Assembly (NCBI RefSeq): GCF_021654855.1
Contig: NZ_AP024202.1
Location: 930,001-994,000 of the forward strand
Direction: 5' to 3'
DNA from: Thiomicrorhabdus immobilis
GTDB lineage: Bacteria; Pseudomonadota; Gammaproteobacteria; Thiomicrospirales; Thiomicrospiraceae
DNA length: 64,000 bases
Shown here: piece by piece, positions 42,552-58,688 of the stretch
Layout: each line of letters starts with the position of its first letter
How positions within the stretch are numbered: the first letter of the stretch is position 1
Position numbers and translations under genes: made by a program
The notes under the pieces: generated by a model
Told to the model about the DNA's origin: nothing
The model's input: the letters and a program-made list of their open reading frames with translations, nothing else
Database searches by the model: none

Positions 42552-43415
42552 TTATTTTACTTTGCAATCTAAGTGATAAGCCACTTGCATGGTGTTTTCC
42601 AACAATGTCGCAATCGTCATTGGGCCAACGCCACCTGGCACTGGAGTAATCCAGCTGGCACGCTGTGCCGCAGTATCATATTCTACGTCACCGCAAAGGG
42701 TGCCATCGTCCATACGGTTAATCCCCACATCGATCACGATCGCACCTTCTTTAATCCATTCACCTTTGACCATGTTTGGAATTCCAACACCCACAACCAC
42801 TAAGTCCGCTTCCGAAACTTTCTGCGCTAAATCTTTGGTCGCACTATGACAAACCGTAACCGTGGCGCGTTCATTCAATAGTTCAAGCATCATCGGCACA
42901 CCCACAATATTGGAAGCACCAACCACAACCGCGTTCAATCCACGTAGAGGAATCCCTGTTTTAGCTAACATCGTCATAACGCCGTGTGGAGTACAAGGTG
43001 CTAATTGCGGCATACGAGTCGCCAAGCGACCAACATTATAAGGATGGAAACCATCTACATCTTTACATGGATGAATACGTTCAATAATCTCTTCTGGGTC
43101 GATATGGTCAGGAACAGGCAGCTGTACAATGATACCGTGTACTTCATCATCGGCATTCAGCTTATCGATTAGAGCAAGTACTTCTTCTTGTGAGGTCTCG
43201 GCAGGGAGTACTACTGAAACATCCTTGAAGCCGGCTTTTTGGCAGGCGATTTTTTTATTACGTACATACACTTGTGATGCAGGGTCTTCACCCACCATAA
43301 TCACGGCAAGCCCAGGCGGTTTTTTACCTAAAGCAACCTGTTTCTCAACTTCCTGTTGAATAGAGTCACGTAATTCAGCCGCAATGGCTTTACCATCTAA
43401 AATTTTTGCAGACAT
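42552..43415 (-). CDS. folD: methylenetetrahydrofolate dehydrogenase/cyclohydrolase
   Basis: 287-residue bifunctional enzyme interconverting methylene-, methenyl- and formyl-THF with [17 protein letters not shown] holds the catalytic lysine; [11 protein letters not shown] and [13 protein letters not shown] (Rossmann loop) are family signatures, and [21 protein letters not shown] closes the protein. An ATG four codons upstream (43427) abuts AGG and is less likely. Confidence 0.96.
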
Positions 43416-43661
43416 AGTATTAATCATCCTACTTTGAGTAAAAAAGTTGCTGATTATGATAACCGATTTTTTACTTTAATAATTTTGGAATCATTTATAT
43501 CCTTTATAGACAAAGTAAATGTTTGTCGATTCTGGCATCCTGAATTCTCAAAAATGGGCGCTTTAAAAGTAGAATCAATAGCTTAGCAAGCAAGGAGTTT
43601 AACCGAGTAAATAGCGGGTGAATTAAATTGTAAAAAAAACGAAAAATATTCATCTTTGTTG

Positions 43662-43841: not shown

Positions 43842-43918
43842 GCGCCCATAGCTCAACTGGATAGAGCATCGCCCTTCTAAGGCGAGGGTTTCAGGTTCGA
43901 ATCCTGATGGGCGTACCA
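43842..43918 (+). tRNA. tRNA-Arg (anticodon TCT)
   Basis: Acceptor GCGCCCA / TGGGCGT (terminal G-U), anticodon loop CTTCTAA giving TCT, T-loop GTTCGAATC, discriminator A and encoded CCA. Confidence 0.95.
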
Positions 43919-43948
43919 TATTTATGGTGTGTTCATCACGCCATCTAT

Positions 43949-44025
43949 GGCGGATGTAGCTCAGTTGGTAGAGCCCAGGATTGTGATTCCTGTTGTCGCG
44001 GGTTCGATCCCCGTCATTCGCCCCA
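43949..44025 (+). tRNA. tRNA-His (anticodon GTG)
   Basis: Acceptor GCGGATG / CATTCGC with the additional encoded G-1 opposite C73 that marks tRNA-His; anticodon loop TTGTGAT gives GTG (43983-43985); encoded CCA. Confidence 0.96.
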
Positions 44026-44321
44026 CTTTTTTTCTTGTTTTTCATTTAGTTTCATCTCTTTTATATACATTCTTTTTCGAATTCGTTCGTTTTTCTTTAT
44101 AAATCAATTTTTTGCTCATTTTCTCTTTGTATTATTTTTCTCTCTGCTGTAGCTGTTACTTATCTGTTTCCTCCTCTTTTTAGGTTTATATTTTTGATAA
44201 ATCGGTTTTTTGCACCAAATAATCTGTTTTGTGTTTCTTATTGGTTCAAAATGGTTTATTTAATTCTATTTCATATTACTTAATTACATCAATATCCTTT
44301 TAAAACGCTATTTATAAAAGT

Positions 44322-44337
44322 TGGTATTCCAATTGCT
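44322..44337 (+). promoter_or_regulatory. sigma-54-type promoter before the substrate-binding protein operon
   Basis: TGGTATTCCAATTGCT: GG and GC elements ten bases apart with a TTGCT -12 element, fitting TGGCAC-N5-TTGCW except in the -24 flank. It lies about 50 bp upstream of the start codon. The rest of 44026-44321 is very AT-rich, with one isolated TGCACC half site (44211-44216) of NtrC type and no gene. Confidence 0.65.
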
Positions 44338-44342
44338 TTTAA

Positions 44343-44374
44343 GGTATTACCCTTTTTTAAATTGGTAATACTGG
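44343..44374 (+). promoter_or_regulatory. paired GGTAATAC dyads (putative operator) downstream of the sigma-54 element
   Basis: GGTATTACC (44343-44351) is a perfect dyad, and TTGGTAATACTGG (44362-44374) matches TTAGTAATACTAA, found before the ABC permease, at 10 of 13 positions in the same orientation. Candidate site for the NikR-fold regulator of the locus. Confidence 0.55.
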
Positions 44375-44383
44375 AGTTATGCT

Positions 44384-45370
44384 ATGAAGTCTAAGATTGT
44401 TTCAAAAACGTTTGGGTTGGTCGCTGGTTTGGCTATGAGTGCTATGTCCTGGCAGGCAAATGCGGCTGAGCCGTTAAAAATTGGTTACAGCGATTGGCCT
44501 GGATGGGTTGCTTGGGAAGTGGCCATTGAGAAGAAGTGGTTCAAGGAAGCTGGTGTTGACGTTAAATTCGAATGGTTTGATTATGTGGCGTCAATGGATG
44601 CTTATGCGGCTGGTAAGTTAGATGCTGTGCATATGACAAACGGTGATGCCTTGGTAACCGGTTCAACAGGCGCGCCAAGTGTGATGATTTTATTGAATGA
44701 CTACTCTAACGGTAACGATATGGTGGTTGCGAAGCAGGGTGTGGCTTCTGTTAAAGATTTAAAAGGTAAGAAAGTCGGTGTGGAAGTGGGGTTTGTGGCT
44801 CATTTGATGTTATTAACAGCCTTAGACGCGAATGGTATGTCTGAATCTGATGTGACTTTAGTGAATGTGCCAACAAATGAAACGCCTCAAGTTTTAGCTT
44901 CTGGTGAGGTTGATGCGATTGTGGCTTGGCAGCCAAGTTCTGGACAAGCTTTAAACCTGGTCCCAGGTTCTAAAGCGGTATTTACTTCAGCGGACAATCC
45001 GGGAATTATTTACGATGGTTTATCCGTGAATCCGGCCAGTCTTTCTAGTCGTAAAAAAGATTGGGAAAAAGTGTTAAAGGTTTGGTACAAAACGGTTGAT
45101 TACATCAATGACCCTAAAACACATGCTGATGCGGTTAGCATTATGGCTTCTCGTGTAGGTCTTGCTCCTGCTGAATATGAACCATTCTTAAAAGGGACTA
45201 AAATTCTTTCTTTAGAAGAAGCGAAAGCGGCTTATAAAAAAGGTGATGGCTTAGACTCTATTTATGGTTCATCAAAAGTTTCTGACGACTTTAACGTTGC
45301 AAACAAAGTGTACGATGCTCCACAAGATATCAATGTTTATTTTGATGGTTCTTTAACAAACGGATTGTAA
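44384..45370 (+). CDS. ABC transporter substrate-binding protein, urea carboxylase-region type
   Basis: 328 residues: signal peptide cleaved after ANA, then an NMT1/SsuA-NrtA-like periplasmic fold. Conserved stretches [37 protein letters not shown] and [15 protein letters not shown] are those of the binding protein normally encoded with urea/guanidine carboxylase genes. Its permease and ATPase lie 12-14 kb away on the other strand, so this transporter is split between two convergent operons. Ligand probably a guanidine- or urea-like nitrogen compound. GGAG lies seven bases before the ATG. A terminator-like hairpin follows, so this gene is probably expressed more than those behind it. Confidence 0.88.
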
Positions 45371-45393
45371 TTACAAGGTACGATTTGTTTCCC

Positions 45394-45435
45394 AAACAGC
45401 CTTTTAAGAAATTTTTCTTTCAAGGCTGTTTTTTT
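45394..45435 (+). terminator. terminator/attenuator behind the substrate-binding protein gene
   Basis: AAACAGCCTT / AAGGCTGTTT stem followed by seven T residues; would reduce read-through into the desaturase-like gene. Confidence 0.8.
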
Positions 45436-45473
45436 ATCTAGTACACGTTTTATTCAGCAAATGAGGTGTGAAA

Positions 45474-46487
45474 ATGTCTAAAAAACCGAAATATTTTCGT
45501 CATCATGATGCTTTGAAACCGACGGTTATCGCAATAATTTATGTGATAACCTCTTATATTCTAGGGTTTGGCTTACTGTTAGCGGAACCTCTTATTACCA
45601 ACTTGATTGGTATTCCTTTATTGGCTCATTCAATGGTGATTGCTGCTTACTTGATTCACGAAGCGGCCCATTCAAGTGTATTTAAGGATAAAAGGCATAA
45701 CCGTTGGTTTGCCGAGTCCTTATTATGGATAACAGGTAACAGCTATTCGAGTTTTAGCGATATCCAACGTAAACACAATCGACACCATATTGACCGAGCG
45801 GATATTGTCTCTTTTGATTTTAGGCCAGTTTTAGAAAGGCACCCTAACGTTCTTAAAATTATTAAAGCTCTCGAGTGGGCTTATATCCCCGCACTCGAAA
45901 TCGTGATGCACGCCTTAGTATTGATCTTGCCTTTTGTTAAACCGAATAGAAAACAAAATCGTTCACGTATTATTTTGGTAGTGTTCTTAAGAGTGTTGAT
46001 GTTTACAGGGTTAGCGTCGATCTCTTTGAACATATTATGGTTATATCCAATCGCTTACATGCTGTTTTTAACGGTAATGCGTTTTATGGATGTTCACCAA
46101 CATACTTATGAAGTCTATGAAACTTTAGATCTACCTAGGGGTGCTGAAGCCAGATTGAGAGACCGAGAATTTGAGGAGCATAATACCTACTCAAATTTGC
46201 TGTCAGTGAAATATCCGTGGGTGAATCTATTGGTGTTGAATTTCAGTTATCACAATGTACATCATGAGCAACAGTTGCAGCCTTGGTATCGATTGCCAAA
46301 ATTACATCAACAGATGTTTGGCGACGATTATCAACAAATTCTGACTTTTAAACATCTGATTAAAAGTTTTCACAAATACCGCGTGCCACGTGTTTTAAAT
46401 GGTGACCCAATCAATTTACCCGTTAAAAAAGATGAAGGTGAGACTTTTATTGGGGTGGATGGTGTCTCTTTTCTAACCGCTCACTGA
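45474..46487 (+). CDS. membrane fatty-acid desaturase/hydroxylase-like di-iron protein
   Basis: 337 residues with four or more membrane spans and the three histidine clusters of the desaturase/hydroxylase superfamily: HEAAH near residue 62, KHNRHH near 101 and HNVHH near 260, plus DVHQH near 207. The fold uses two irons and O2 to desaturate or hydroxylate alkyl chains. Start ATG seven bases after GAGG; a GTG six bases earlier is in frame. It sits behind the nitrogen-compound binding protein and ahead of a hydrolase, which suggests oxidation of a small molecule or N-alkyl group rather than membrane lipid, but this is inference; a lipid desaturase is the alternative. Confidence 0.85.
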   Translation: MSKKPKYFRHHDALKPTVIAIIYVITSYILGFGLLLAEPLITNLIGIPLLAHSMVIAAYLIHEAAHSSVFKDKRHNRWFAESLLWITGNSYSSFSDIQRKHNRHHIDRADIVSFDFRPVLERHPNVLKIIKALEWAYIPALEIVMHALVLILPFVKPNRKQNRSRIILVVFLRVLMFTGLASISLNILWLYPIAYMLFLTVMRFMDVHQHTYEVYETLDLPRGAEARLRDREFEEHNTYSNLLSVKYPWVNLLVLNFSYHNVHHEQQLQPWYRLPKLHQQMFGDDYQQILTFKHLIKSFHKYRVPRVLNGDPINLPVKKDEGETFIGVDGVSFLTAH

Positions 46488-46518
46488 CACCATTAATTCA
46501 CTCTACAAGGTAATCATT

Positions 46519-47301
46519 ATGACTCAAGTTAAAAAGTTTTGGCCCATTCTAACAGGGCAACATACCTATGAAAAAACGCTTTCTACTCGCGGGGTGGGTA
46601 GTGGCGAAGTTATTAAAGCCCCTATTTTAGCCTATTTAATTGAGACCAATAATGGGCGTATCTTGTTTGACGTGGGCTGTGATTACCAAAAAATTAAACA
46701 GCCTGATTTACGTCAAAAATACTATGAGCATGACGGTTTTCCTTTTGGCCCGCCAGAGATGGAAGAGGAGCAGCAGTTACCTAATAAACTACAAATTTTA
46801 GGTTTACAGCCAGAAGATGTCGATGTGGTGTTTTGTAGTCATTTACATTTTGATCATGCGGGTGGTTTATGTGAGTTTTGTCACGCTGAGGTACATGTAC
46901 ACGCGCAAGAGATGAATGCGGCTAAAAACCTTGAAGACGAAGCCTACTTCACCTCGGATTTTGACTTACCGCTTAACTGGAAAATTCAAACAGAAGAGTA
47001 TGATTTAGTGCCAGGTGTGAGAGCGATTGAAACGCCTGGGCATACCGCAGGGCATATGTCTATGTATATTGAACTACCCAAAGGCCGGCCCATTGTATTG
47101 GCTGGCGATGCCGCAGATTTAGTTGAAAATATCGAACAAGAGATTGCCCCTGGGCTGTGTTGGCAAGACAACGAATCGATGGCGATTGAGAGTATTCAAA
47201 AATTGAAACAGTTTAGCCAACAAAATAATGCCGCACTTTGGCCAAATCATGATTGGCAGTTCTTTCAAAAACATAATCGATTCCCTGGTTTTTTTGAATA
47301 G
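46519..47301 (+). CDS. metallo-beta-lactamase-fold hydrolase (AHL lactonase-like)
   Basis: 260 residues with the binuclear zinc motif SHLHFDHAGG (107-116), a later His in ETPGHTAGHMS, Asp in LAGDAAD and a C-terminal His in PNHDWQFF. Closest in layout to the N-acyl-homoserine lactonase/AttM group, which opens lactones, but family members also cleave other esters and amides. It stands second in the four-gene cassette behind the binding protein, between the desaturase-like and TIM-barrel genes, so it likely hydrolyses a product of the oxidation step. Quorum-signal degradation is less likely in this context. Confidence 0.85.
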   Translation: MTQVKKFWPILTGQHTYEKTLSTRGVGSGEVIKAPILAYLIETNNGRILFDVGCDYQKIKQPDLRQKYYEHDGFPFGPPEMEEEQQLPNKLQILGLQPEDVDVVFCSHLHFDHAGGLCEFCHAEVHVHAQEMNAAKNLEDEAYFTSDFDLPLNWKIQTEEYDLVPGVRAIETPGHTAGHMSMYIELPKGRPIVLAGDAADLVENIEQEIAPGLCWQDNESMAIESIQKLKQFSQQNNAALWPNHDWQFFQKHNRFPGFFE

Positions 47302-47318
47302 TAAGGGACAATAATTTT

Positions 47319-48176
47319 ATGCAATTAAAAACATTCAAAACACTCTGGGGAAATACTCTACCGATTGACCAGGCCTGTCAAAATGCCATTCATAATAGGT
47401 TTACGGGGATTGAAGGTCAGGCTCCTAAAGATAAAAATCAACAAAATAGTTGGGCACAGGCCTTGGCGGATTTTGAGTGCGATTATATTGCTGAAATTGT
47501 CACCGGAGGTGATTATGTTCCCAATCGCAATTGGACTATTCAGCAGCATCTCGATGATATTAAATTTCAGTTGGATTGTTCACTGTCTCTTAATCCCTTA
47601 TTTGCCACTTGTATTACGGGGTGTGATGCTTGGGAGGAATCCAAGTCGATTGATTTCTTTGCGCAAGCTATGAGCCTGGGTATGGAGTATGGTGTAACCT
47701 TAAGTTTTGAAACCCATCGTAGTCGCTCATTGTTCACTCCTTGGATTACACAACGTGTGGTTGAAGCCTTGCCAGAAATAAAGTTAACCGCTGATATTAG
47801 CCATTGGTGTGTGGTGTGTGAACGTTTAATGGATTCTGAAATAGAAACCATTCATGCGATTGCGAATAATGTGCATCATATTCATGGACGAGTAGGCTAC
47901 GATCAAGGCCCGCAAGTTCCTCATCCAGCCTTACCAGAATATCAAGCCGCTTTAAAGTCTCACCAGTCCATTTGGGAATTTTTTTGGCAAGCACAGAAAA
48001 TAAATCAGTATGCCTTTTCAACATTAACCCCCGAGTTTGGGCCTGATGGCTATTGTCAGCTACTGCCGTTTACCCAAGCCCCCGTTGCGGATATTGACGA
48101 AATTAATCAGTGGATGAATAACAATGAAAAAGCCCACTTCAGCCAATTTATAGAGCCAGAAATAATATCATGTTGA
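47319..48176 (+). CDS. TIM-barrel sugar-phosphate isomerase/AP-endonuclease-2-like protein
   Basis: 285 residues of the xylose isomerase-like TIM-barrel family. Putative metal/acid ligands appear at the expected strand ends: SFETHRSRS (Glu), ADISHWCVV (Asp, His), HHIHGRVG (His) and TPEFGPDGY (Glu). The family includes isomerases, epimerases and dehydratases such as IolE and Hyi; none of those is clearly matched. It overlaps the exporter gene by seven bases. A near-perfect palindrome copy encodes DQAC near residue 18. Substrate unknown. Confidence 0.82.
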   Translation: MQLKTFKTLWGNTLPIDQACQNAIHNRFTGIEGQAPKDKNQQNSWAQALADFECDYIAEIVTGGDYVPNRNWTIQQHLDDIKFQLDCSLSLNPLFATCITGCDAWEESKSIDFFAQAMSLGMEYGVTLSFETHRSRSLFTPWITQRVVEALPEIKLTADISHWCVVCERLMDSEIETIHAIANNVHHIHGRVGYDQGPQVPHPALPEYQAALKSHQSIWEFFWQAQKINQYAFSTLTPEFGPDGYCQLLPFTQAPVADIDEINQWMNNNEKAHFSQFIEPEIISC

Positions 48177-49066
48177 AAACCTTTCAAACCTTATCGCAAA
48201 AGCCAGAGTTTCCCGTTATTGTCTTAGTTATCGCGTCCTTTTTTTGGGGGTTAAGCTGGTTGCCGCTTAAATCTTTAAATCAAATGGGATTTGATGGCCC
48301 TTTACTCATTTTTGCTGCTTATAGCTTGTTGTCGTTAGTCTTTTTGCCGTTATTGATTAAACAGCGTAGTTATCTTAAAAGTCACTTAGCAGCTTGGTTA
48401 ATCATTTTAGTTTTGGGCGGTGGGGCAAACTTCGCGTTTAGCTATGCACTCATCTATGGCGAAATTATCCGTGTCATGGTGCTGTTTTATCTTTTGCCGT
48501 TATGGGGTGTTTTGGGTGGTAAGTTTCTATTAAATGAGCATGTGGATTACAAAGGTTGGATGGCGGCAGGGCTTTCTATTTGTGGTGCGTTTTTGATTGT
48601 TGGTGGCTTTAAAGTCTTTGAGTCGCCACCCACTTGGATTGATGGTATTGCCTTATTATCTGGCTTTTTATTTGCCATGAATAATATTGCATTTCGTGCC
48701 CATCAAGATATTCCAATGGTGCCCAAATTAAGTGCTTTATTTATCGGTACAGCACTACTCTCGGGGCTTCTGTTTTTTGTACAGGGTGCTGAAATGCCAA
48801 ATGATATTTCACTGCCAGCATGGCAATTATTGGTGTTTTATGGCCTGGTTTGGTTGCTGATTTCTAATTATGGTTCGCAGTGGGGAGTGACCCATCTACC
48901 TGCGAGCCGCTCTTCCATTATCATTATTATGGAGTTGGTTGTTGCTGTGATTTCTGCGGTGCTCATTGCGAATGAAACCTTGAGCTTCGTTGAGGGGTTG
49001 GGCGGCGTTCTTATTGTAACCGCAGCGGTTTTAGAGGCTTTTAGAAAAACGAATAAAGACAAATAA
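48170..49066 (+). CDS. EamA/DMT-family transporter
   Basis: 298 residues with ten predicted membrane helices in two five-helix EamA repeats (first FFWGLSWLPLKSL, second beginning near WIDGIALLSGFLFA). Drug/metabolite transporters of this type usually export amino acids or small metabolites. It is the last gene of the plus-strand cassette and overlaps the TIM-barrel gene, so it probably moves a product or substrate of that pathway. Direction and cargo cannot be read from sequence. Confidence 0.88.
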   Translation: MLKTFQTLSQKPEFPVIVLVIASFFWGLSWLPLKSLNQMGFDGPLLIFAAYSLLSLVFLPLLIKQRSYLKSHLAAWLIILVLGGGANFAFSYALIYGEIIRVMVLFYLLPLWGVLGGKFLLNEHVDYKGWMAAGLSICGAFLIVGGFKVFESPPTWIDGIALLSGFLFAMNNIAFRAHQDIPMVPKLSALFIGTALLSGLLFFVQGAEMPNDISLPAWQLLVFYGLVWLLISNYGSQWGVTHLPASRSSIIIIMELVVAVISAVLIANETLSFVEGLGGVLIVTAAVLEAFRKTNKDK

Positions 49067-49080
49067 AAGCGTAAGCTGAA

Positions 49081-49165
49081 ATAACCAGGCCTGGTAAGTT
49101 GTATTGAATGGGTGAATAACCAGGCCTGGTAAGTTGTATTGGATGAGTGAATAACCAGGCCTGAT
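49081..49165. repeat. tandem 35-bp repeat (2.4 copies) carrying ACCAGGCCTGGT between convergent operons
   Basis: Units begin at 49081, 49116 and 49151; each opens ATAACCAGGCCTG and continues TAAGTTGTATTGRATGRGTGA. The first two hold perfect 12-bp palindromes, the third one mismatch (CCAGGCCTGA). Located exactly in the gap where the two nitrogen operons meet. No other terminator is evident there, so it may serve as one. Confidence 0.9.
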
Positions 49166-49175
49166 AAGTTAATAT

Positions 49176-50987
49176 TTAAGACTTGCGTTGTTTCATCCAG
49201 TTACGCCAACCGCCTGTTGCTGAGATATCCGTGGCTCCCTCAATACCATAAGGTTCGCAAATAAAGCCAACCACTTGGCTACCGTCTTCAAGCTCCACTT
49301 TTCCTAAACCCAATGGGGATGGAATCAATGCCAGGAAAGAGCCTAAATGTTCTTTAGGCATTGCCCAAACCTCGACTTCAATGGATTGTCCCTCATTTTC
49401 ATTGGCTTGTTTGACCAGGCCAGGTTTTAAAATTGGGCCACCAGGTAGTTCGAAAAATTGGTATTTAGGCGCAGTTTTGGTGGTTTTTAGGAGTTTTGCA
49501 CCTCGTTCAAGCAATTGTGAATTTAATGGAAAACCAACTAAATGTGCGCCGACTACCGCGAGCGCAATGGATTGTTGGTTTGTAAAGTGAGCAGGATTGC
49601 TCTCTGGAACATCAATAAAACGTGCCCCCGAATTTTCTACAAACTGTTTATGCAATGAGTCGGTCAGTTGCATTAGTTGCCGATCGCTACCTGCGGGTGC
49701 AAAAAATGTCACACCCGTCGGCAGTGTATCTGCTCTAAAACCTGTTGGCATGGCAATGGCGGCGTAATCCAGTAAATTCATGAAGTTGGTGTAAGTACCC
49801 AGTTTGGAGTTTAGACCGATTGGGTCGTTTTGCAGGGCTTCAATGCTGTAAATGGTTGGAGTGGTCGGAGTCATAAAACAATCGATTCCGTGATTTTCCC
49901 AAATGATTTGTGTTGCTCTTTGTGCTTGTTGCAGAGCATAAGCACCTTGATAAGCGTCCACTGCGGAGAGCGATTTTGCGCCGCCAATAATCTTGGCAAC
50001 CGCCGGATCCATTTGATTTTCATGGGTTTCAAAAAAATCTTGAATAGCAAGGTAGCGTTCCGCCACCCATGCGCCACCATAAAGCAGTTTGGCGGTATCC
50101 AACCAGGCCTGGAAAGGGACAGATTTGATTTCATAACCAAGGTTTTTTAAAGTCGATACGCTATGTTCAAAGGCCTTTTGCGCCTCGGAGTCGCCATCGA
50201 AAAACAAACTTTCACGGTCAGGGATACCGATGACGGGTTGGCTTGGCCAAGCAGGAGAGGTCAGCCGATTTTCCGAGCGGCTAAACGCATCCTTTTCATC
50301 AAACTTGGCCGCGACATCAAACACCGAATACGCATCCTGTGCGTTTAAAGCAAACACGCTAACCACATCTTGAGAGCGCACTGCTGGCACAACGCCATGG
50401 GTGCTCAATAAGCCTTTTGAGGGTTTTAGCCCGACCAGATTATTGAAAGCGGCCGGTACCCGACCAGAGCCGGCGGTATCGGTACCTAATGAAAAACTGC
50501 AAAGGTTGAGTGCTAAGGAAACCGCAGAACCTGAACTGGAACCACCTGAAATCATTTCAAAGTCAAACGCGTTATGACAAACTCCATAAGGAGAGCGAGT
50601 TCCTACCAGGCCTGTCGCAAATTGATCCATATTGGCTTTAGCAATGGGAATGGCACCAGCGTCAATCAGTTGTTGGACAACGGTAGCTGATTCGCTTGGC
50701 ACGTAGCTAAACTCTTTACAGGCAGCCGTAGTTGGAATGTTGGCTAAGTCAATATTATCCTTGATGACAAAAGGGATACCCCAAAGAGGCAAGCTGTTGG
50801 GTTCGCTCTGGTCTAATTGACTTAGGTAAGGTTCCAGTTCTGTGGGCGTCAATAAATGAATAAACAGATTGTAGTCTGCATAGCCATGCGCGTTTTGAAT
50901 CAGCTGTTGCACTAAGTTTCTAGGCGTGAGTTCGCCAGAGGCATATTGGTCGTGTAGCGCTGAAAGCGTTAAATTAAATTCTCGCAT
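49176..50987 (-). CDS. atzF: allophanate hydrolase
   Basis: 603 residues: amidase-signature domain with Lys76 in VIKDN, the Ser-rich SGGSSSGSA (148-155) and nucleophile region TDTAGSGRVP (169-178), then the family-specific C-terminal domain (about 460-603, VEVWAMPKEHLGSFLA). It splits allophanate into CO2 and ammonia, the last step after urea or guanidine carboxylation. It begins one base after the carboxylase stop, so the pair is coupled. A perfect palindrome encodes FQAW and a near copy ATGLVGT. Gene name follows the AtzF family and does not imply s-triazine degradation. Confidence 0.92.
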   Translation of the reverse strand: MREFNLTLSALHDQYASGELTPRNLVQQLIQNAHGYADYNLFIHLLTPTELEPYLSQLDQSEPNSLPLWGIPFVIKDNIDLANIPTTAACKEFSYVPSESATVVQQLIDAGAIPIAKANMDQFATGLVGTRSPYGVCHNAFDFEMISGGSSSGSAVSLALNLCSFSLGTDTAGSGRVPAAFNNLVGLKPSKGLLSTHGVVPAVRSQDVVSVFALNAQDAYSVFDVAAKFDEKDAFSRSENRLTSPAWPSQPVIGIPDRESLFFDGDSEAQKAFEHSVSTLKNLGYEIKSVPFQAWLDTAKLLYGGAWVAERYLAIQDFFETHENQMDPAVAKIIGGAKSLSAVDAYQGAYALQQAQRATQIIWENHGIDCFMTPTTPTIYSIEALQNDPIGLNSKLGTYTNFMNLLDYAAIAMPTGFRADTLPTGVTFFAPAGSDRQLMQLTDSLHKQFVENSGARFIDVPESNPAHFTNQQSIALAVVGAHLVGFPLNSQLLERGAKLLKTTKTAPKYQFFELPGGPILKPGLVKQANENEGQSIEVEVWAMPKEHLGSFLALIPSPLGLGKVELEDGSQVVGFICEPYGIEGATDISATGGWRNWMKQRKS

Positions 50988-50988
50988 C

Positions 50989-53900
50989 TTAAATTACCTC
51001 CAGAATCATTAGGGCTTGTCCTGTTTGGATTAAATCACCCTCGTTGACTAGGATCTCGGTGACGGTTCCAGTCGTTTCCGCCGTCACTGGAATCTCTATT
51101 TTCATGGTTTCCAAAATGGCAATGGTGTCACCCTCATTAACGGTATCTCCCGGTTTGACTTGCAGTTTCCAAACACTGCCTGTAATGGGTGAAAGCGCGG
51201 CTTCAAAACCTTCGGGTATTTCTATTGATGCATCACTTTGGATACTGTCTTGTGCGGTTTCAGATTCAAAGTTCGCTAGGCCAGACTCTTCCCAATATAG
51301 GCGTTCGGCTTCAAAAGCACCTTGTTGTTGCTTTTGAAAGGCGTCAATACTGTCGTGGTTCTGTTTCAAGAAATCTTGATAGCTATTTAAAGAAAGTTCG
51401 GTCTCTTCGATTTCAATGTCGAAACGCCCTAAAGGGAAGTCCAAACGCGCTTGCGCGAGTTCTTCTTCAGAAACGGGGTAGTATTGAATTTGGTCAAAGA
51501 AATCCAGTAACCAAGGTTTGCCGTCCTTAAAGTTCTTGGTGATGTGGTAAGGGTTCCACATTTGTATAGTTCGGCCAACAAATTGGTAACCTCCAGGACC
51601 TTCCATGCCGTAAATGCACATATAAGCGCCACCGATTCCCACCGCATTTTCCGGTGTCCAGGTTCTTGCCGGATTGTATTTGGTGGTGACTAGACGATGA
51701 CGTGGGTCAAGCGGTGTTGCAACGGGAGCTCCGAGATAAACGTCTCCTAATCCCATAACCAAATATTTGGCATCAAAGACAATCTTTTTGACCTCTTCGA
51801 TGCTGTCCAGGCCATTTATTCGACGGATAAAATCGATGTTACTCGGACACCAAGGCGCATTAGGGCGCACGGTAGTCATGTATTTTTCAATCGCCAGCTT
51901 GGTGCTTGAATCATCCCAGGAGAGGGGCAAGTGCACAATGCGACTTTTAACGGTTAAGTCTTGTCCTGATGAAATCTCCTCTTCAAGGGAAATGAGCTTT
52001 TCAATCAATTCGGCTTGAGAAATTTGGCGAGGGTCATAATGCACTTGTAATGAGCGGATGCCGGGTGTCAGTTCTCTTAAAAATGACCAGGCCTGGTGGG
52101 TTTGAGATTCTTTGTTTTCCTTCAAGCGTTCAAACAGCACCTGAATACGAAAACGCAACGCTAAATCGAGTTCCATTCTTCCATATTCCACTAAGACATG
52201 GCTGTCACCTGAGCGGCGATATTTGACTCCGAATTCATGATTTTCCGCTGATATCTCATGGGCGATACAAGATTGTTCTGTCGATGATACTAAGAAATCC
52301 AAATCTAGCTCGGTCGGCATTTCAAGTGTTTTTAAAGCGGTTTCATAGTCCTTGAGAGCGGCTTCGGCCGTTTCGATGGAAACGGCTTTAAAACGGACTT
52401 TATCTCCTGGACGCAATTGCCCCATTTTCCACTGCTCAGCTTCTATGATTGTGGCCGGGCAGACAAAGCCGCCTAGACTTGGCCCGTCTTGTGCCAGGAT
52501 AACGGGCATATCCCCCGTGAAATCGATTGCCCCAATCGCATAGGGGTTGTCGTGAATATTGGATGGGTGAAGACCGGCTTCGCCGCCATCTTTACGAGCC
52601 CATTGCGGTTTAGGACCGATTAGACGAATACCGGTACGGCTAGAGTTGTAATGAACTTCCCATTGAGCGGTAAAAAAGCGTTGAATATCATCTTCGGTAA
52701 AGAAGTCGGGGCTACCCTGAGGGCCGTAGATGACCGCAATTTCATATTCATTTGTAAGCTTAGGAATGACTTGATTCGGTAAGGCTTTGAGAATGGAATT
52801 GTCTTGACATTCAGTAAGGCGCAAAACGTCACCAGCACGCAACAAACGGCCGCCGTGTCCACCAAACTTACCTAAAGAGAAGGTGGTTTTGCTCCCCATG
52901 TAGTCGGGTACGTCAAAACCGCCCAATACAGCCAAATAGGCGCGTTGACCAATGCCCTTGATCACTTTGGATTTTAATTGTTGACCTGCTTTTACCTGGA
53001 TAGGTTGCCATTGCGGAATAGGCTGATTATCAAGTGTAGCTTGTATATCCGCGCCGGTAATACAGATGAGGGTGTCGGTATCGAACGTCAAATTGATACC
53101 CGATACGGTCATTTCAATGGTTGCCGCCTCTTCAGGGTTGTGTAAGCAGCGATTGGCTAGGCGGTGGGAGAGCGCGTCCATGGGGCCAGAAGGCGGAACG
53201 CCAATGTCCCAGTAGCCAATTCGACCAGGGTAACTCACTAACATTGAGTGTGTTCCGGGATTGGTGACTTCGACAGTGTTAGGGGTATAGCTGAAGCTAT
53301 TTAAAAACTGGGTATAGAGTTCGGTGCCTTGTTGGAATTCCGGGGCATGGCTGAGCGCTTTAAGGTAAGCTAAGTTGGTTTCAAATCCATCAATGCTTGC
53401 TTGCGCCAGGGCGTTTTGCAACGCTATGACAGCATTTTTCCTATTGTCGGCTTTAACGATGATTTTTGCCATCATCGGGTCATAAAATGAACTGACTTCC
53501 ACCCCGCGATCACACCAGGTATCAACTCGGCAATCCGACGGCATGTTCCAACCTGTTAATTTACCGCTGCTTGGCAGGAAGTTTTTGAAAGGATCTTCTG
53601 CGTAAACTCGCACTTCAATTGAGTGTCCGGAGGCCGATGGGATTTGTTGTGCGCTTAATGGTAGTTTAGGCTTGTAGGCGACTTTGATCATCCATTCGAC
53701 CAAATCGATGCCGCGAACCGATTCGGTAATTCCATGCTCGACTTGAAGGCGTGTATTCACCTCTAAAAAATAATAAGCGTTGCAGTCGGCATCGTAGACG
53801 TATTCAACCGTTCCCGCCGATTTATAGTTGACGACTTTACCCAGAGCCACCGCATGGCTTTCCATCTCGGTGATTTGTTGGCGACTGATGCCGACAGCCG

Positions 53901-54624
53901 GAGTTTCTTCGACTACTTTTTGATTTCGACGTTGTAAAGAGCAGTCACGTTCACCAAAAGAAACCACATTACCTTGGCCATCGCCGAAAATCTGAATTTC
54001 GATATGACGAGCATTGACCACAAATTTTTCCAAAAATAGTCCTGCCTGACCAAACGAGTTTTGGCTTAAACGTTTAACCTGTTCAAAAGCCGCTTCCAAG
54101 TCATCTGGGGTTTCACATTTTTGCATACCGATACCGCCACCTCCTGCGGTACTTTTAAGCATAACAGGGTAACCTATCTTCACAGCTTCTGTTTGGGCGT
54201 GTTCCAATGAGTCTAATAAGCCTGAACCTGGTAGTAGGGGAACACCTGCTTGAATGGCTAAATCCCTTGCGGTGTGTTTTAAGCCAAAGTCACGGATGTG
54301 TTGAGGTTCAGGGCCGATAAAACGGATTCCGGCTGCTTCACAGTCATTGGCAAACCCGGTGTTTTCACTTAAGAATCCATAACCGGGATGGACGGCTTCA
54401 ACCCCGAGTTTTTTCGCTTCAGAGAGAATGAGAGGGACATTCAGGTAGGTTTCAGTAGCCACGTTGCCCGGTAAAAAAATCACTTCATCAGCCTGCTGGA
54501 CATGCAAAGAAGCACGGTCGGCATCAGAGGCCAACACGACAGATTGAATGTTCATCCGTTTAAGCGTGCGGATAATACGAATTGCAATCGCGCCGCGGTT
54601 AGCGATGAGTACTTTGTTAAACAT
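50989..54624 (-). CDS. biotin-dependent urea/guanidine carboxylase
   Basis: 1211 residues: biotin carboxylase domain (1-450, [26 protein letters not shown]), KipA/AHS2 and KipI/AHS1 carboxyltransferase domains (about 465-780 and 800-1090) and a C-terminal biotinyl domain with [10 protein letters not shown] (biotin Lys ~1175). Such enzymes carboxylate urea to allophanate; those encoded with DUF1989 proteins, as here, have been shown to prefer guanidine, giving carboxyguanidine. I cannot assign the selectivity residues with certainty. AAGGA seven bases before the ATG; 123 bp separates it from the DUF1989 gene. A perfect palindrome encodes THQAW. Confidence 0.92.
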
Positions 54625-54747
54625 GATTTTTTCCTTTTCAGACCGTTCTGAATCGAGTATGCCAAGCTGGGTCGTCCCACTTGGGGTCTGTAATCACAGA
54701 CAGAATTTCAAATAAGAGTGTTAAGTAAATGAGTATTAATTAAAAGT

Positions 54748-55422
54748 TTATTCCCAGATTATCATCTCAACCGGAGTGGGGTTATAGCCATTGCATGGAT
54801 TGTTGAGCTGTGGGCAATTGGAAACTAAAACCAAGACATCCATGTGGGCTTGCATCTCTACATAACGTCCTGGAGCAGAAATACCATCATCAAAATCCAA
54901 GTGGCCGTCAGGTGAAACCGGCACATTCATAAAGAAGTTGATATTGCTCGATAGGTCGTCTTTGGTTATCGGCTTATCGTGGTTACAGCTACATGCACCT
55001 GATTCTGATGAGGATGTTTTCATTGACCCCAAAGCCATCAAGAAGGAGTCGCGACAAGAGTGCATATGACGTTTTTCAATGGCATATCGCACTGTGTTGC
55101 TCTCTGCGGAGCAAGCACCACCGATGGTGTCATGGCGTCCGCAGGTGTCGTCGATGATGGTTAACATCGGGTTGCATAAGTTGGATTGCAATACACTGCC
55201 AGTCGTTAAATAGATGTTGCCTTGTTCACGAATGGTGTCGGTAGCGGAATAACGTTCAGAGTGGTCATTGGCATTATAGAATAGCGTGTCTACCGCTTGG
55301 TTACCTTCTAAATCGACAATACGGAATTTTTGGCCAGCCTTGACCTCATGCATCCACGGGTCTCCAGCCGCCACCACTTCACGATAGACGATTTTGCTTT
55401 CATCAAATTGTGGTTTAGTCAT
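54748..55422 (-). CDS. DUF1989 urea-amidolyase-associated protein (carboxyguanidine deiminase subunit-like)
   Basis: 224 residues. DUF1989 core [21 protein letters not shown], then [20 protein letters not shown] and a CSCNHDKP motif, with several Cys/His likely binding zinc; C-terminal [12 protein letters not shown]. It is one of the two paralogues (UAAP1/UAAP2) that travel with this carboxylase type and were linked to deimination of carboxyguanidine to allophanate. The start with GGAG upstream is preferred to ATGs at 55437 and 55503; it overlaps the partner gene by eight bases, so the two are coupled. Confidence 0.87.
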
Positions 55423-56158
55423 TTGGGTTTTCTCCATAAAAAACTTTGGTGTTGTAGTAGGCACGTTGGTTTTCCGCCCGGTGTAAACGGCAAGGGTCGT
55501 CATGAGTAACCGGTAACGACTTGTATACGCTTAATTCGATAGGTTGCGGATTATATTCAGGGTTGGTATCCATTGGGTGCTGTGCGGTTGAGAGGCTAAC
55601 GATGCAATCCATCTCAAAGCGCAAATCCACATGGTCGCCGGCTTTGGAGTTGTTGGTAACGAAGGTCATCGAGCCATTGTCTTCCACGCGAACCTTACTG
55701 AACCAATTGATGTTCGGCATGATGTCACTGGCATTCAATCCCCATTTTCCTAACTCATTGATCAAACTGTCGTAACCGTTTTTGAAGTAGTCGTTATGGG
55801 CTTCTTGATAGCTTTTCTGTCCGTATTTTTTCTGTACTATCGTGGCATTTGATAAGCCACCAATCGTGTCGTGCCAGCCGCAGCTATCGGCGATAATGGA
55901 ACACATGACTCGTCCCATGTCGCTAAAACACATGTTTGGTGTGGTTAAAAAAGCGGTTTTTTGTGCTTTTAAGGTATCAGGCATGTTGTAGCGTTCATTT
56001 TTAACCTCAAGGTTGTTGATGAGCATAGCGACATTGGCGTTGCCTTGTAAGTCTGTAAGGCGAAGAACTGTGCCACGGCGAATCACTCCTGACCAGTGCG
56101 CTCCGCCAGGTAGGCTTTCTTGCCAGATTAAACCGTTATATTTGTTAGGATGGGTCAT
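55415..56158 (-). CDS. DUF1989 urea-amidolyase-associated protein, second paralogue
   Basis: 247 residues, paralogous to the next gene: [39 protein letters not shown] and [11 protein letters not shown] align with the same blocks there, but the extra CSCNH motif is absent, so the two subunits are not equivalent. Expected to form the carboxyguanidine deiminase complex together. The ATG chosen has CAGGAGA upstream; the longer frame from 56245 would add 29 unrelated residues and overlap the regulator gene more deeply. It overlaps the regulator by 14 bases. Confidence 0.87.
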
Positions 56159-56618
56159 TCGGTTTTCTCCTGAATTGAATCGGTGAGGTGTAAATAGGGG
56201 GGAGTGCCGATTGGGTGAGATAAAGATTGGCGTTTTTAACGCCACGATTGGCCGTCATCTCGTCACTGATCTTTTTCAAATCTTGAGCGGCACCCTGCAT
56301 CAAATTTACTTCTAAAGTATGTTGGTCCATTAGTTGGATTTGAGTGCTGGAAATAATCTCAGCCACATATTGGTGTTTCAACTGAATCAGTCTTTGCTGT
56401 AGCCCTGGTACAGAGTGGTCGTAAACCATGGTTAAGGTACCCGCCATAATCTCGTTGGTATGGTTCTGACTAAATGCCGCGGCTTCTTTACGGATGATAT
56501 CGGCTAATAGGGCTGAACGATTGCTAAAGCCTCGCGCTTGCATTAGATAATCTAGGTCATCTATGACATTTTCTGGTAAAGAGGCACTGGTGCGAATAAG
56601 TTTGTTGTTTTGTGTCAT
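56145..56618 (-). CDS. NikR-fold ribbon-helix-helix regulator lacking most nickel ligands
   Basis: 157 residues. N-terminal ribbon-helix-helix (LIRTSASLPENVIDDLDYLM, RGFSNRSALLADIIRKEA) and an ACT-like C-terminal domain (TLTMVYDHSVPGLQQRL...LEVNLMQGAAQDLKKI) with the order and spacing of NikR. Aligned without gaps to E. coli NikR, the nickel ligands His76, His87, His89, Cys95 fall on His82, Gln93, Gln95, Thr101: three of four are lost, so nickel is probably not the signal. It lies inside the operon between the ABC ATPase and DUF1989 genes and is the natural candidate for the GGTAATAC dyads at both operon promoters. Ligand may be guanidine or a relative (inference). Confidence 0.8.
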   Translation of the reverse strand: MTQNNKLIRTSASLPENVIDDLDYLMQARGFSNRSALLADIIRKEAAAFSQNHTNEIMAGTLTMVYDHSVPGLQQRLIQLKHQYVAEIISSTQIQLMDQHTLEVNLMQGAAQDLKKISDEMTANRGVKNANLYLTQSALPPIYTSPIQFRRKPNDPS

Positions 56619-56619
56619 G

Positions 56620-57531
56620 TTAAAAAATATCCGGTACTTCTGAATTGACTGATACCATGCGAACCATGCTCAGTTTGTCTTCCATGTCCACCTCGGCTTG
56701 TGGCGGGTGAACAATTTTTTCCAAATAGGCTTTCGTCGCTAAAAACTCTGGAGAGAGCAGGGTGTCCTCTTTTCGTGGGCGAGGTAATGGCACACTTAAG
56801 GTTTCCAAAACACGTCCAGGATTGGCTTCCAAAATTAAAATACGGTCGGCAAGGTAGATTGCCTCATCTAAATCGTGGGTGATAAAGAAGATGGTGATGT
56901 CGATGTTCTGCCAGATTTCCAATAGATAACGCTGCATCTTCAAACGGTTTTGCGGGTCTAATGCGGCGAAAGGTTCATCCATTAACAAGATTTTAGGTTG
57001 ATTGGCCAAAGCGCGAATAATCGCTACACGTTGTTTCATTCCGCCAGAAAGTTGGTGCGGGTAGGCGTTGGCAAATTTTTCCAGCCCCACCAAATCAATC
57101 CACTGAAAGGCTTCTGCTTCAGCAGAATTCTTTGACATACCGGATTCGGTTAAGCCAAACATGACGTTCTGTTTGACAGTCATCCATGGAAACAACGAGT
57201 AGCTTTGGAATACCATGCCTCTATCCGGCCCTGGTCCATCAACTAATTTATCCTCAATATGTATCGCCCCCACTTCGTGGGTTTCCAGGCCCGCAATCAA
57301 TCTGGCTAAGGTCGATTTTCCACAACCGGATGGACCAACCACGCAGACAAATTCACGTTTATAAGCGGTGAAGTCGATGGCGTTAAGGACATTGACCTTT
57401 TTACCTTTGTGTTCAAAGGTCTTGTGGAGATCGGATATGGTCAATGCTTTTGGACGCTGCAAGATTCTAGAGTTTCGGTCTTTGATTTCATCAGTGAACC
57501 AATTTGCGAGTGGGTGAATGTTCTTTAACAT
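56620..57531 (-). CDS. ABC transporter ATP-binding protein (nitrate/taurine-type)
   Basis: 303 residues: Walker A VGPSGCGKSTLARL, Q-loop MVFQSYSLFPWM, signature LSGGMKQRVAIIRAL, Walker B ILLMDEPFAALD, H-loop FFITHDLDEAIYLADR. Typical of NrtD/SsuB/TauB-like importers. It energises the permease encoded nine bases upstream, with the binding protein at 44384. The C-terminal extension (VHPPQAEVDMEDKLSMVRM) is seen in carboxylase-linked members. GGAG precedes the ATG. Confidence 0.9.
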   Translation of the reverse strand: MLKNIHPLANWFTDEIKDRNSRILQRPKALTISDLHKTFEHKGKKVNVLNAIDFTAYKREFVCVVGPSGCGKSTLARLIAGLETHEVGAIHIEDKLVDGPGPDRGMVFQSYSLFPWMTVKQNVMFGLTESGMSKNSAEAEAFQWIDLVGLEKFANAYPHQLSGGMKQRVAIIRALANQPKILLMDEPFAALDPQNRLKMQRYLLEIWQNIDITIFFITHDLDEAIYLADRILILEANPGRVLETLSVPLPRPRKEDTLLSPEFLATKAYLEKIVHPPQAEVDMEDKLSMVRMVSVNSEVPDIF

Positions 57532-57540
57532 CTGGTTCTC

Positions 57541-58515
57541 CTATTTGCCTGTATGCCAAGGGAATAATCGTTTGCCGATTTGTGCTAAGACCATGTCGGT
57601 TATCAAGCCGATTAAGCCAATGATAAGGATAGCGGCAAAGACATTATCAAAGTTTTTGTAGCGAGCTTGCTGGGTGATGAACCAAGTGATACCGGAACTT
57701 GTACCGATGAGTTCAGCCACAATCAAATAAGTCCATGCCCAGCCAAGCAGAATGCGCATGTCGCGATACAGGTCGGGCAGTATTCCAGGTAAGACAACTC
57801 GTCTAATCATACGGAAGCCTTTGCAACCTAACGTTAGAGAAGCTTCAATAAGCGCCATATTCAGTTTACGTGTGGTGGTGGCCACAATTAGTACCATTTG
57901 GAAAAAGGTTCCGATGAAGATAATGGTGATTTTAGGGGCATCGTAAATACCCATTATTGCCACGGCCAAGGCTCCAAATGCTGGGGCGGGTAGGTATCTG
58001 AAAAACTCTGTAAAAGGCTCGATTAAATGAGAGGCGGCATTATAGGTTCCGGCTAATATTCCTAAGGGCACGCCGAAAAGCATGGCCCAGAAGAACCCCC
58101 AGGCAATAATTGTAATAGAGTGGGCCAGGCTTTCATGTAACCAGGGTTCGCTATTACGTTTGGGCGGTGTTGTAAAGGCGGTGTATAGAGCGGTTACCAC
58201 TTCATGTGGTGCAGGCAAGTAGACCGGGTTGGATGGTGTTCCTTGCGGCAGGGCTGTGATGTCAATTTGCGGGTTTTCGCTGATTTTCTTGTCAACTTCT
58301 GTTTGAAAGACCTCTTTATCGATTAAAGAACCTTCTTTGAAGTAGCTGACCCCGCCTGATTGAGTGATTTCTACTTGTGGATGCCAAATGAAAGGTACAT
58401 AACTTACCAAACACCAGATGAGTATTGGAATGGCAAAACTCGCCAGAGTCAAAAGGTGTGCTGATTTTTTATCAACTGGTGTTCTTGGTATTGCCCAGTT
58501 TTTGAAGCTGCTCAT
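57541..58515 (-). CDS. ABC transporter permease (nitrate/taurine-type)
   Basis: 324 residues: one N-terminal span (about 22-42), a periplasmic segment of about 70 residues (WHPQVEITQS...PQGTPSNPVYLPAP), then five or six membrane helices with the EAA-like loop EASLTLGCKGFRMIRRVVLPGILPD. This architecture matches the importer associated with urea/guanidine carboxylases. First gene of the minus operon, with a sigma-54-type promoter and operator upstream; its ribosome site is weak. Confidence 0.9.
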   Translation of the reverse strand: MSSFKNWAIPRTPVDKKSAHLLTLASFAIPILIWCLVSYVPFIWHPQVEITQSGGVSYFKEGSLIDKEVFQTEVDKKISENPQIDITALPQGTPSNPVYLPAPHEVVTALYTAFTTPPKRNSEPWLHESLAHSITIIAWGFFWAMLFGVPLGILAGTYNAASHLIEPFTEFFRYLPAPAFGALAVAIMGIYDAPKITIIFIGTFFQMVLIVATTTRKLNMALIEASLTLGCKGFRMIRRVVLPGILPDLYRDMRILLGWAWTYLIVAELIGTSSGITWFITQQARYKNFDNVFAAILIIGLIGLITDMVLAQIGKRLFPWHTGK

Positions 58516-58540
58516 ATAAGTATCGACTCGTTTTAAAATG

Positions 58541-58553: not shown

Positions 58554-58570
58554 TTCTTTAAAACGTAATA

Positions 58571-58685: not shown

Positions 58686-58688
58686 ATT

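Follow-up and report, generated by a model that had tools for sequence, protein, structure and literature searches.

Gene content of the locus

In the window, a stretch of 64,000 nucleotides from Thiomicrorhabdus immobilis (presumably a sulfur oxidiser of the Thiomicrorhabdus type), four forward-strand genes lie side by side, as the original prediction had placed them at 45474-49066. These are DES (45474..46487), a PF00487 membrane di-iron oxygenase and putative methylguanidine (N-alkylguanidine) hydroxylase; MBL (46519..47301), a PF00753 metallo-beta-lactamase-fold hydrolase resembling AHL lactonase and pyridoxolactonase; TIM (47319..48176), a candidate N-(hydroxymethyl)guanidine lyase with a predicted xylose-isomerase fold; and EamA (48170..49066), an EamA-family (DMT) transporter (PF00892, 2.5e-20) whose gene overlaps the TIM gene by 7 nt. 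The DES reading frame (45468-46487) opens with GTG at 45468 and has an ATG at 45474. On the same strand lies SBP (44384..45370), the binding protein of an ABC importer, which is NMT1-like in the Pfam scan and has TIGR03427 as its best NCBIfam match (158 bits, under the cut-off of 333.9).

The reverse strand carries the genes of allophanate hydrolase AtzF (49176..50987; TIGR02713, 746 bits), a biotin-dependent carboxylase annotated as a urea enzyme (UC, 50989..54624; TIGR02712, 1809 bits), and the carboxyguanidine deiminase subunits CgdB (UAAP2, 54748..55503; TIGR03424, 347 bits) and CgdA (UAAP1, 55415..56245; TIGR03425, 352 bits), so that atzF, cgdB and cgdA of the guanidine carboxylase pathway are all present and above cut-off. 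Beyond them on this strand are a NikR-like ribbon-helix-helix protein (56145..56618; PF08753 NikR_C, 3.6e-22), a candidate regulator of the operon whose homologues turn up again in other gca loci, an ABC transporter ATPase (56620..57531; PF00005, 1.5e-31) and a permease (57541..58515; PF00528, 1.9e-23). The SBP, permease and ATPase genes are adjacent in other gca loci.

Asp701 of UC (codon at 52522..52524, reverse strand) aligns with an Asn of the Kluyveromyces lactis urea amidolyase, and we take this column, through Asn1330 of the yeast enzyme, to be the one that discriminates guanidine from urea. As stated in the accessible part of a published study, Asp versus Asn at the specificity position separates guanidine from urea carboxylases (PMC12186494). 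Among 68 aligned carboxylases including that of the window, some of them from loci fetched twice, 60 had Asp, 3 Cys and 2 Asn, and 3 were gapped. The carboxylase is thus likely of the guanidine type, an activity predicted from Asp701; urea was considered as its substrate, and the Asp argues against it. The three Cys carboxylases and one of the Asn carboxylases belong to Verrucomicrobia loci with a Rieske oxygenase (L103, L105, L108, L112), and the Rieske variant may therefore have another substrate.

Between SBP and DES lies a terminator-like hairpin followed by a U run (45394..45431, forward strand; -17.3 kcal/mol, z -5.8), and none of 200 shuffles was equally stable. Because this strong hairpin separates the two genes, the proposal that the cassette shares the SBP promoter is doubtful and unsupported; in other genomes, the cassette precedes SBP or lies away from it, and in some it has its own guanidine-II riboswitch. 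No guanidine riboswitch was found in the window at the gathering threshold, none up to E 5 in 43900-58900, and guanidine-II (RF01068) is absent upstream of the cassette. In a Rfam scan of 42 loci picked by choice among the TIM and DES loci, a guanidine-II riboswitch was directly 5' of DES in 9 of the 26 DES loci scanned, including Thiomicrorhabdus chilensis, where "directly" means -60 to 260 nt from a DES start estimated via the 3' end of the gene. In four loci (L087, L115, L117, L122) the riboswitch overlaps a mechanically extended DES reading frame.

The cassette proteins

DES matches PF00487 at 1.3e-35. Eight histidines (H68, H103, H106, H107, H212, H262, H265 and H266) are conserved in 31/31 sequences and H64 in 30/31. 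In sequence searches of the PDB, DES had no matches at E 10. Its AlphaFold2 model (pLDDT 92) aligns with the alkane monooxygenase FtAlkB (8sbb) over 252 residues (Z 11.6, rmsd 4.5); Foldseek alone returned weak matches, and AlkB emerged in a second structure comparison. Family match, histidine ligands and fold are all those of the PF00487 superfamily, and the model of DES is an AlkB-like fold carrying the di-iron histidines. The two top rows of the structure comparison (Z 18) were chains of chloroplast FtsHi complexes, with chain identity not given.

TIM had no Pfam or NCBIfam match at E 0.01, and its single sequence match in the PDB (E 0.88) was taken as chance. The AlphaFold2 model (pLDDT 95) shows a TIM barrel of the xylose-isomerase type, which aligns with 8z1i at Z 21.5 (rmsd 3.0, 247 residues). 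E131, D159, R191, H215 and E239 are invariant in 52 of 52 sequences. Far homologues with 31-36% identity (Cohnella, Sumerlaeota and others; L139-L145) lack gca genes in the flanking sequence fetched, and may have another activity.

MBL matches PF00753 at 2.1e-20, has an HxHxDH motif at residue 108, and matches AiiA-type structures at up to 2.7e-34. It scored 149.2 bits against the NCBIfam model of quorum-quenching AHL lactonase (cut-off 375) and 150 bits against that of 4-pyridoxolactonase (cut-off 325). In one locus (L080), MBL is fused in frame to TIM. EamA belongs, we assume, to the superfamily of the guanidine exporter Gdx.

Linkage to guanidine carboxylase genes

The gene order SBP-DES-MBL-TIM-EamA was found in 14 fetched loci (11 distinct places after removal of duplicates), and DES-MBL-TIM-EamA-SBP in 7 (5 distinct places); given these recurring orders, the gene set is not a chance grouping. 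Eight places were fetched twice, which slightly inflates the counts of oxygenase partners, riboswitches and gene orders. DES and TIM occur without MBL in several loci, some of them short contigs, and without both MBL and EamA in several. MBL and EamA seem to be accessory, the core being apparently independent of both.

We searched 369 gammaproteobacterial genomes with cut-offs of at least 189 bits for cgdA, 224 for TIM and 96 for DES; that the TIM, DES, cgdA and MgdL searches covered the same genomes is judged from equal sizes and handles. Matches below 24 bits for TIM (3 of 11 genomes), 25 bits for DES (7 of 19) and 110 bits for cgdA (14 of 43, among them G634 with 100 bits and G681 with 70) were dropped, and all six for MgdL were kept. 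While cgdA was carried by 29 of the 369 genomes, it was present in 8/8 TIM carriers (p ~5e-10), 10/12 DES carriers (p ~1e-10) and 6/6 carriers of the lyase MgdL (p ~1e-7), all p values being uncorrected for kinship. Seven of the ten genomes with both DES and cgdA have TIM and three have MgdL; the tendency of TIM and MgdL to exclude each other within the 29 cgdA genomes is by itself not significant (p 0.11). Several cases count against the reading proposed below: two DES genomes have no cgdA (G588, G681), DES and MgdL lie on separate contigs in G633, G511 has MgdL and no DES match, and 3 of 18 TIM genomes lack a cgdB match. The co-occurrence search called for by the original prediction nevertheless bears out its link between cassette and carboxylase locus: TIM and DES carriers are mostly cgdA genomes, and close homologues of TIM or DES are not widespread without the carboxylase. 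The association of the cassette with the guanidine carboxylase locus beside it is genuine.

The family names of DES and MBL, taken at face value, would suit a fatty-acid desaturase and an AHL lactonase, that is, lipid or quorum-signal genes that happen to lie beside the carboxylase locus. We give this coincidence almost no credence, as it is contradicted by the co-occurrence with cgdA, the guanidine-II riboswitches 5' of DES, the recurring gene order, and an MBL score far below the lactonase cut-off (149 vs 375 bits). No lipid or quorum-signal linkage was noticed in the loci looked at, in an incidental and non-systematic inspection.

It is also improbable that the cassette detoxifies or exports guanidino compounds instead of supplying nitrogen, with EamA as a guanidinium exporter and DES and TIM modifying an inhibitor. 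The presumed kinship of EamA with Gdx would suit such a role, and riboswitch control in relatives fits it equally well, but the linkage to an importer, a carboxylase, allophanate hydrolase and a glutamine-synthetase-like gene (31 of 90 loci) points to assimilation.

Exchange of oxygenases and of known or putative lyases

The original prediction knew of no described pathway with this combination of genes; a parallel one was published in October 2025. In the available text of that paper, the 2-oxoglutarate (2-OG) dioxygenase MgdH and the lyase MgdL of Vreelandella boliviensis convert methylguanidine to guanidine and formaldehyde, MgdL is narrow for N-(hydroxymethyl)guanidine and is described with a beta-barrel model, a guanidine-II riboswitch binds guanidine and methylguanidine alike, and the glutathione-linked formaldehyde enzymes FrmA and FghA are induced (PMC12508155). 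Among the matches listed from the open-licence literature, only this paper was relevant and none tied a PF00487 protein or a TIM barrel to methylguanidine; the "desaturase" of PMC11410670 and PMC12186494 is NapI in the text available. None of 12 locus proteins scanned was an MgdH-type 2-OG dioxygenase (2OGD), and with the MgdL of locus L182 as the query, the T. immobilis genome had no match to MgdL (Asp49/Arg51 type).

TIM and MgdL are taken as unrelated on the basis of their sizes (285 aa and 225 aa), the published beta-barrel model, the marginal score of one MgdL homologue against HRI1 (27.5 bits, cut-off 27), and the MgdL queries of the annotation run, in which no TIM protein was the best match. 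Four pairings occur in nature: 2OGD with MgdL (published), 2OGD with TIM, DES with TIM (here) and DES with MgdL. The last is found in L182, with the order DES-MBL-MgdL-EamA, and in L176, with SBP-DES-EamA-(two genes)-MBL-MgdL. The 2OGDs that neighbour MgdL in the gca operons of L170 and L172 share 49-59% identity with those adjoining TIM (L056, L058-L060, L062, L063 and L106, the TIM of L059 coming from one analysis only), and a 2OGD from an unrelated context (L174) is 31-34% identical in the same comparison. The Asp-x-Arg motif is kept in 5/5 aligned MgdL proteins. No MgdL of at least 60 bits lies within 10 kb of TIM in 89 TIM loci.

In the 58 TIM loci flanked by 5 kb each way, a few of them counted twice, the partner was DES in 32, a Rieske oxygenase in 9, 2OGD in 7 and none in 10, and no locus had two types. 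Parsimony on the TIM tree requires 2 changes for the 2OGD partner and 16 for all labels (minimum 3, with "none" as a label); therefore, partners have been exchanged more than once. Counting against the reading proposed below, 10 of the 58 full loci, and 27 of the whole set of 89, had no DES, 2OGD or Rieske gene at a distance of up to 10 kb from TIM. For 19 of these 27, genomes of stated origin but unstated assembly completeness were searched: DES was elsewhere in 6 (one a 97-bit fragment) and absent in 13, including all three of a Campylobacterota-type clade, and only 3 genomes had a 2OGD match, at 106-120 bits. Also, the MgdL of L182 shares no more than 28-38% identity with the other MgdL sequences, so that its specificity may differ. 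We slightly favor the view that unrelated oxygenases (AlkB-like membrane di-iron, 2-OG and Rieske) and two unrelated hemiaminal lyases (MgdL and TIM) were freely combined during evolution for the oxidative N-dealkylation of guanidinium compounds.

Proposed pathway

We propose, with a probability of about two in three, that the cassette does the work of the methylguanidine demethylation module with non-homologous proteins, its likely core being two enzymes, DES and TIM, in place of MgdH and MgdL. The importer (SBP, permease and ATPase) would take up methylguanidine or a very similar N-alkylguanidine; DES would hydroxylate the N-methyl group to give N-(hydroxymethyl)guanidine; and TIM, probably metal-dependent, would split this into guanidine and formaldehyde. 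Guanidine would then pass through the carboxylase, CgdAB and allophanate hydrolase to yield ammonia, usable as nitrogen, and CO2. MBL and EamA may handle the C1 product or export or import a guanidinium compound. Of the original prediction, the idea that an alkylated guanidine is oxidised by a di-iron enzyme and so supplies the carboxylase is the best reading, as suggested by partner exchange, genome linkage, the riboswitches, Asp701 of the carboxylase and the AlkB-like fold with its di-iron histidines. Two other steps of the original prediction need revision: because MgdL replaces TIM in other loci, TIM is better read as a guanidine-releasing hemiaminal lyase than as an enzyme that isomerises the carbon remnant, and because DES and TIM occur without MBL, hydrolysis of the oxidised product by MBL is unproven. 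Counting against our proposal are the lack of a guanidine riboswitch in the window, the presence of MBL, for which it does not account, and the fate of formaldehyde, since the T. immobilis genome has no match to FrmA (TIGR02818) or FghA (TIGR02821).

The lack of these matches is easier to understand if formaldehyde is not made. With the same architecture, DES could hydroxylate the carbon beside the guanidine group of a larger substrate (agmatine, 4-guanidinobutyrate or a creatine-like compound), TIM could help to release guanidine and an aldehyde, and MBL and EamA could process or export the carbon remnant, a scheme nearest to the original prediction. MBL and EamA are extras relative to the published operon, an AHL-lactonase-like MBL would be apt for a lactone or lactam, 26 of 90 clustered loci have creatininase-family genes in the neighbourhood, and the MBL-TIM fusion fits as well. 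However, the lyase that takes the place of TIM beside DES is the narrow MgdL, an MgdH-type 2OGD adjoins TIM, and several DES-TIM loci do without MBL and EamA; we therefore consider a larger substrate unlikely.

If methylguanidine demethylation is the function, DES would be, as far as we know, the first N-demethylase of the membrane di-iron type with a very small cation as its substrate, and in TIM the xylose-isomerase fold would have gained a new lyase activity. A specific activity could then be assigned to two orphan groups, of which one is annotated as fatty acid desaturase and the other as sugar isomerase or not at all, and both steps of one pathway would have been replaced non-homologously. 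Use of methylguanidine would extend far past the halophiles described so far to Thiomicrorhabdus/Hydrogenovibrio sulfur oxidisers, Arenicellales, Moraxellaceae and many other Gammaproteobacteria, and perhaps to Verrucomicrobia and cyanobacteria, and methylated guanidines would seem to form a real pool of nitrogen in nature.

Comparison with known systems

DES shares its fold and histidine pattern with AlkB alkane monooxygenase and fatty acid desaturases (SCD1 6wf2, Z 5.6), but is 11-15% identical to these structures and lies in a guanidine context, not a lipid or alkane one. TIM has the same fold as L-ribulose 3-epimerase (8yeb) and the isomerase Art22 (8z1i), at Z ~21 over ~250 residues, but is ~10-13% identical to xylose-isomerase-like epimerases, has no Pfam match, and its context offers no sugar role. 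MBL has the metallo-beta-lactamase fold and HxHxDH in common with AiiA and 4-pyridoxolactonase, but falls far under both cut-offs and sits among guanidine genes.

As in the MgdH/MgdL system of V. boliviensis, an oxygenase gene and a known or putative lyase gene form part of a guanidine carboxylase locus that also encodes an ABC importer, and MgdL homologues stand in place of TIM in two DES loci. Unlike in that system, the oxygenase here belongs to the PF00487 membrane di-iron proteins and not to the 2-OG/Fe(II) dioxygenases, a protein with a xylose-isomerase fold replaces MgdL as the candidate lyase, MBL and EamA are added, and the window has no riboswitch. Every gene of the Gca/CgdAB/AtzF pathway adjoins the cassette, with Asp at the specificity position of the carboxylase; here the pathway appears extended by an upstream module and is split into two convergent units.

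Gene arrangement around the cassette

The genome of T. immobilis is a single contig of 2.54 Mb. In the window, genes encoding a substrate-binding protein (SBP), a PF00487 desaturase-like protein (DES), a metallo-beta-lactamase-fold protein (MBL), a xylose-isomerase-fold protein (TIM) and an EamA transporter run in that order on the plus strand (44384-49066), convergent with a minus-strand unit (49176-58515) that encodes, in order, allophanate hydrolase (AtzF), the carboxylase, UAAP2 (CgdB), UAAP1 (CgdA), a ribbon-helix-helix protein, an ATPase and a permease. Between the convergent ends of the EamA and AtzF genes (49080-49184), a 35-nt unit whose core is palindromic occurs in three direct copies, perhaps a repeat element or a terminator that acts in both directions.

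Alignment placed Asp701 of the window carboxylase where yeast urea amidolyase has Asn, and we take this column to be the specificity position of the Asp/Asn rule. Asp versus Asn is said to distinguish guanidine from urea carboxylases (PMC12186494). Because CgdA, CgdB and AtzF all scored above the NCBIfam cut-offs and the carboxylase has Asp701, the minus-strand unit is predicted to be a guanidine carboxylase pathway. SBP probably works together with the opposite-strand permease and ATPase, since the three genes are contiguous in many other guanidine carboxylase loci.

A promoter common to SBP and the cassette, as assumed in the original prediction, now appears at best to act by read-through, because the SBP-DES gap holds a hairpin (-17.3 kcal/mol, more stable than 200 of 200 shuffles) followed by a U run, and because the position of SBP varies. 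In other genomes, the order SBP-DES-MBL-TIM-EamA was found in 14 loci (11 distinct) and DES-MBL-TIM-EamA-SBP in 7 loci (5 distinct).

Linkage to guanidine metabolism

The proposed tie between the cassette and the carboxylase locus was borne out among 369 gammaproteobacterial genomes, of which 29 contained cgdA. All 8 genomes with TIM and 10 of the 12 with DES also had cgdA, as did all 6 with MgdL, the lyase of the published methylguanidine pathway (PMC12508155). A TIM search of genome contigs yielded 70 loci, many with a carboxylase, CgdA, CgdB or allophanate hydrolase gene within 10 kb of TIM (31 of the 58 TIM loci that had 5 kb of sequence to either side). In 18 genomes picked for a TIM locus that lacked an adjacent carboxylase or was of the 2-OG dioxygenase (2OGD) type, cgdB was present in 15 and unmatched in 3, all Verrucomicrobia assemblies. 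The cassette belongs to guanidine metabolism.

Of 42 TIM/DES loci chosen for Rfam scans, 19 contained a guanidine riboswitch. Upstream sequence was available for 26 DES loci, and 9 of these had a guanidine-II riboswitch right in front of DES. The 9 include L079 (Thiomicrorhabdus chilensis) and L094, in which DES-MBL-TIM-EamA, as in the window, is followed by SBP. No guanidine riboswitch was found in the window or in six other scanned loci of close relatives. A NikR-like gene (PF08753; window 56145-56618), kept in many guanidine carboxylase operons, may take on regulation in loci that lack riboswitches, such as the one in the window.

Exchange of candidate oxygenase and lyase partners

In our main reading, DES would hydroxylate methylguanidine and TIM would be the lyase releasing guanidine and formaldehyde, the reaction published for the 2OGD MgdH together with MgdL. 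Among 29 carboxylase loci taken from the class sample, L170 and L172 match the arrangement of Sinn et al., a 2OGD with a 221-225 aa protein carrying Asp-x-Arg (49/51 in L172 by our count); the motif was present in all five aligned MgdL proteins. The same 2OGD type adjoins TIM, with MgdL absent, in further gammaproteobacterial loci (L056, L058-L060, L062, L063 and L179) and in L106 (Cellvibrionaceae). Conversely, genome G660 (L182) has DES-MBL-MgdL-EamA, the window cassette with TIM swapped for MgdL, and G019 (L176) holds DES, EamA, MBL and MgdL in one locus. Each of the ten genomes with DES and cgdA had exactly one lyase, 7 TIM versus 3 MgdL; in G633 and G478, DES and the lyase lie on separate contigs. 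DES or an MgdH-type 2OGD was present in 13 of 14 lyase genomes; the remaining one, G511, has MgdL, and a search of its genome for DES gave no match. The TIM tree (82 rows) contains 16 partner-label changes, with 'none' counted as a label, and the 2OGD partner by itself needs two changes; the partner type of TIM, as read from this tree, changed repeatedly.

In Verrucomicrobia and two cyanobacteria, the position of the oxygenase is filled by a Rieske-type enzyme. This variant is less sure, because the carboxylase has Cys or Asn instead of Asp in four Rieske loci. These four, all from Verrucomicrobia (L103, L105, L108 and L112), combine the Cys/Asn carboxylase and the Rieske oxygenase with TIM and a gene resembling polysaccharide deacetylases, and possibly serve a third substrate.

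Protein families and predicted folds

The predicted di-iron histidines of DES are retained: H68, H103, H106, H107, H212, H262, H265 and H266 in 31 of 31 sequences and H64 in 30 of 31. The DES model (pLDDT 92) matched alkane hydroxylase AlkB (8sbb; Z 11.6, rmsd 4.5, 252 residues) better than stearoyl-CoA desaturase (6wf2; Z 5.6), and its top two structure matches (Z 18) were chains of chloroplast FtsHi complexes, which the output does not identify further. TIM had no Pfam match; its model (pLDDT 95) is a xylose-isomerase-type barrel with Z of about 21 to epimerases, and E131, D159, H215 and E239, invariant with others across 52 sequences, would suit a metal site. MBL carries HxHxDH, with AHL lactonases nearest, and scores far below the AHL lactonase cut-offs.

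Several observations are compatible with a substrate that is related to methylguanidine but larger. Demethylation does not account for MBL and EamA, which several DES-TIM loci lack, or for the fate of formaldehyde, as FrmA and FghA had no matches in the T. immobilis genome. Methylene-THF is a possible formaldehyde sink; folD (window 42552-43427) lies just upstream of the cassette, and likewise in close relatives (L064-L066 and L072), an adjacency probably due to chance. Furthermore, 27 of 89 TIM loci have no known oxygenase, notably the three of a Campylobacterota-type clade, in whose genomes neither DES nor a 2OGD was matched. Finally, in L080 (9272-10843; a Piscirickettsiaceae MAG), a single ORF of 524 aa joins MBL, short of its final residues, to TIM in frame; this is either a genuine fusion or an artefact of assembly. 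If genuine, it would link MBL to the TIM step, and because of it we moved 0.01 of probability from methylguanidine demethylation to the larger substrate.

Other gene contents were also seen. Of the Campylobacterota-type loci without an oxygenase, L085 reads MBL-carboxylase-TIM-EamA-allophanate hydrolase, and L086 the same without MBL. The TIM locus of the cyanobacterium Drouetiella hepatica (L129) has two DES genes and two SBPs, and by eye also amidohydrolase and nucleoside-type transporter genes. Two other genes, often adjacent, recur in guanidine carboxylase loci, including those without DES/TIM: one resembles glutamine synthetase (31 loci) and the other belongs to the creatininase family (26 loci). 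Examples are L103:2635-4002, L075:4599-5381, L149, L157 and L169.

Comparison with the known methylguanidine pathway

The original prediction named no described pathway for this combination of genes. Methylguanidine demethylation by a parallel pathway was described in 2025, and we found no PF00487 or TIM-barrel route for it in the open-licence literature. We propose that the cassette is a variant of the kind of pathway described in 2025. It differs from that pathway in that the oxygenase and the lyase would both be swapped for enzymes of unrelated families.
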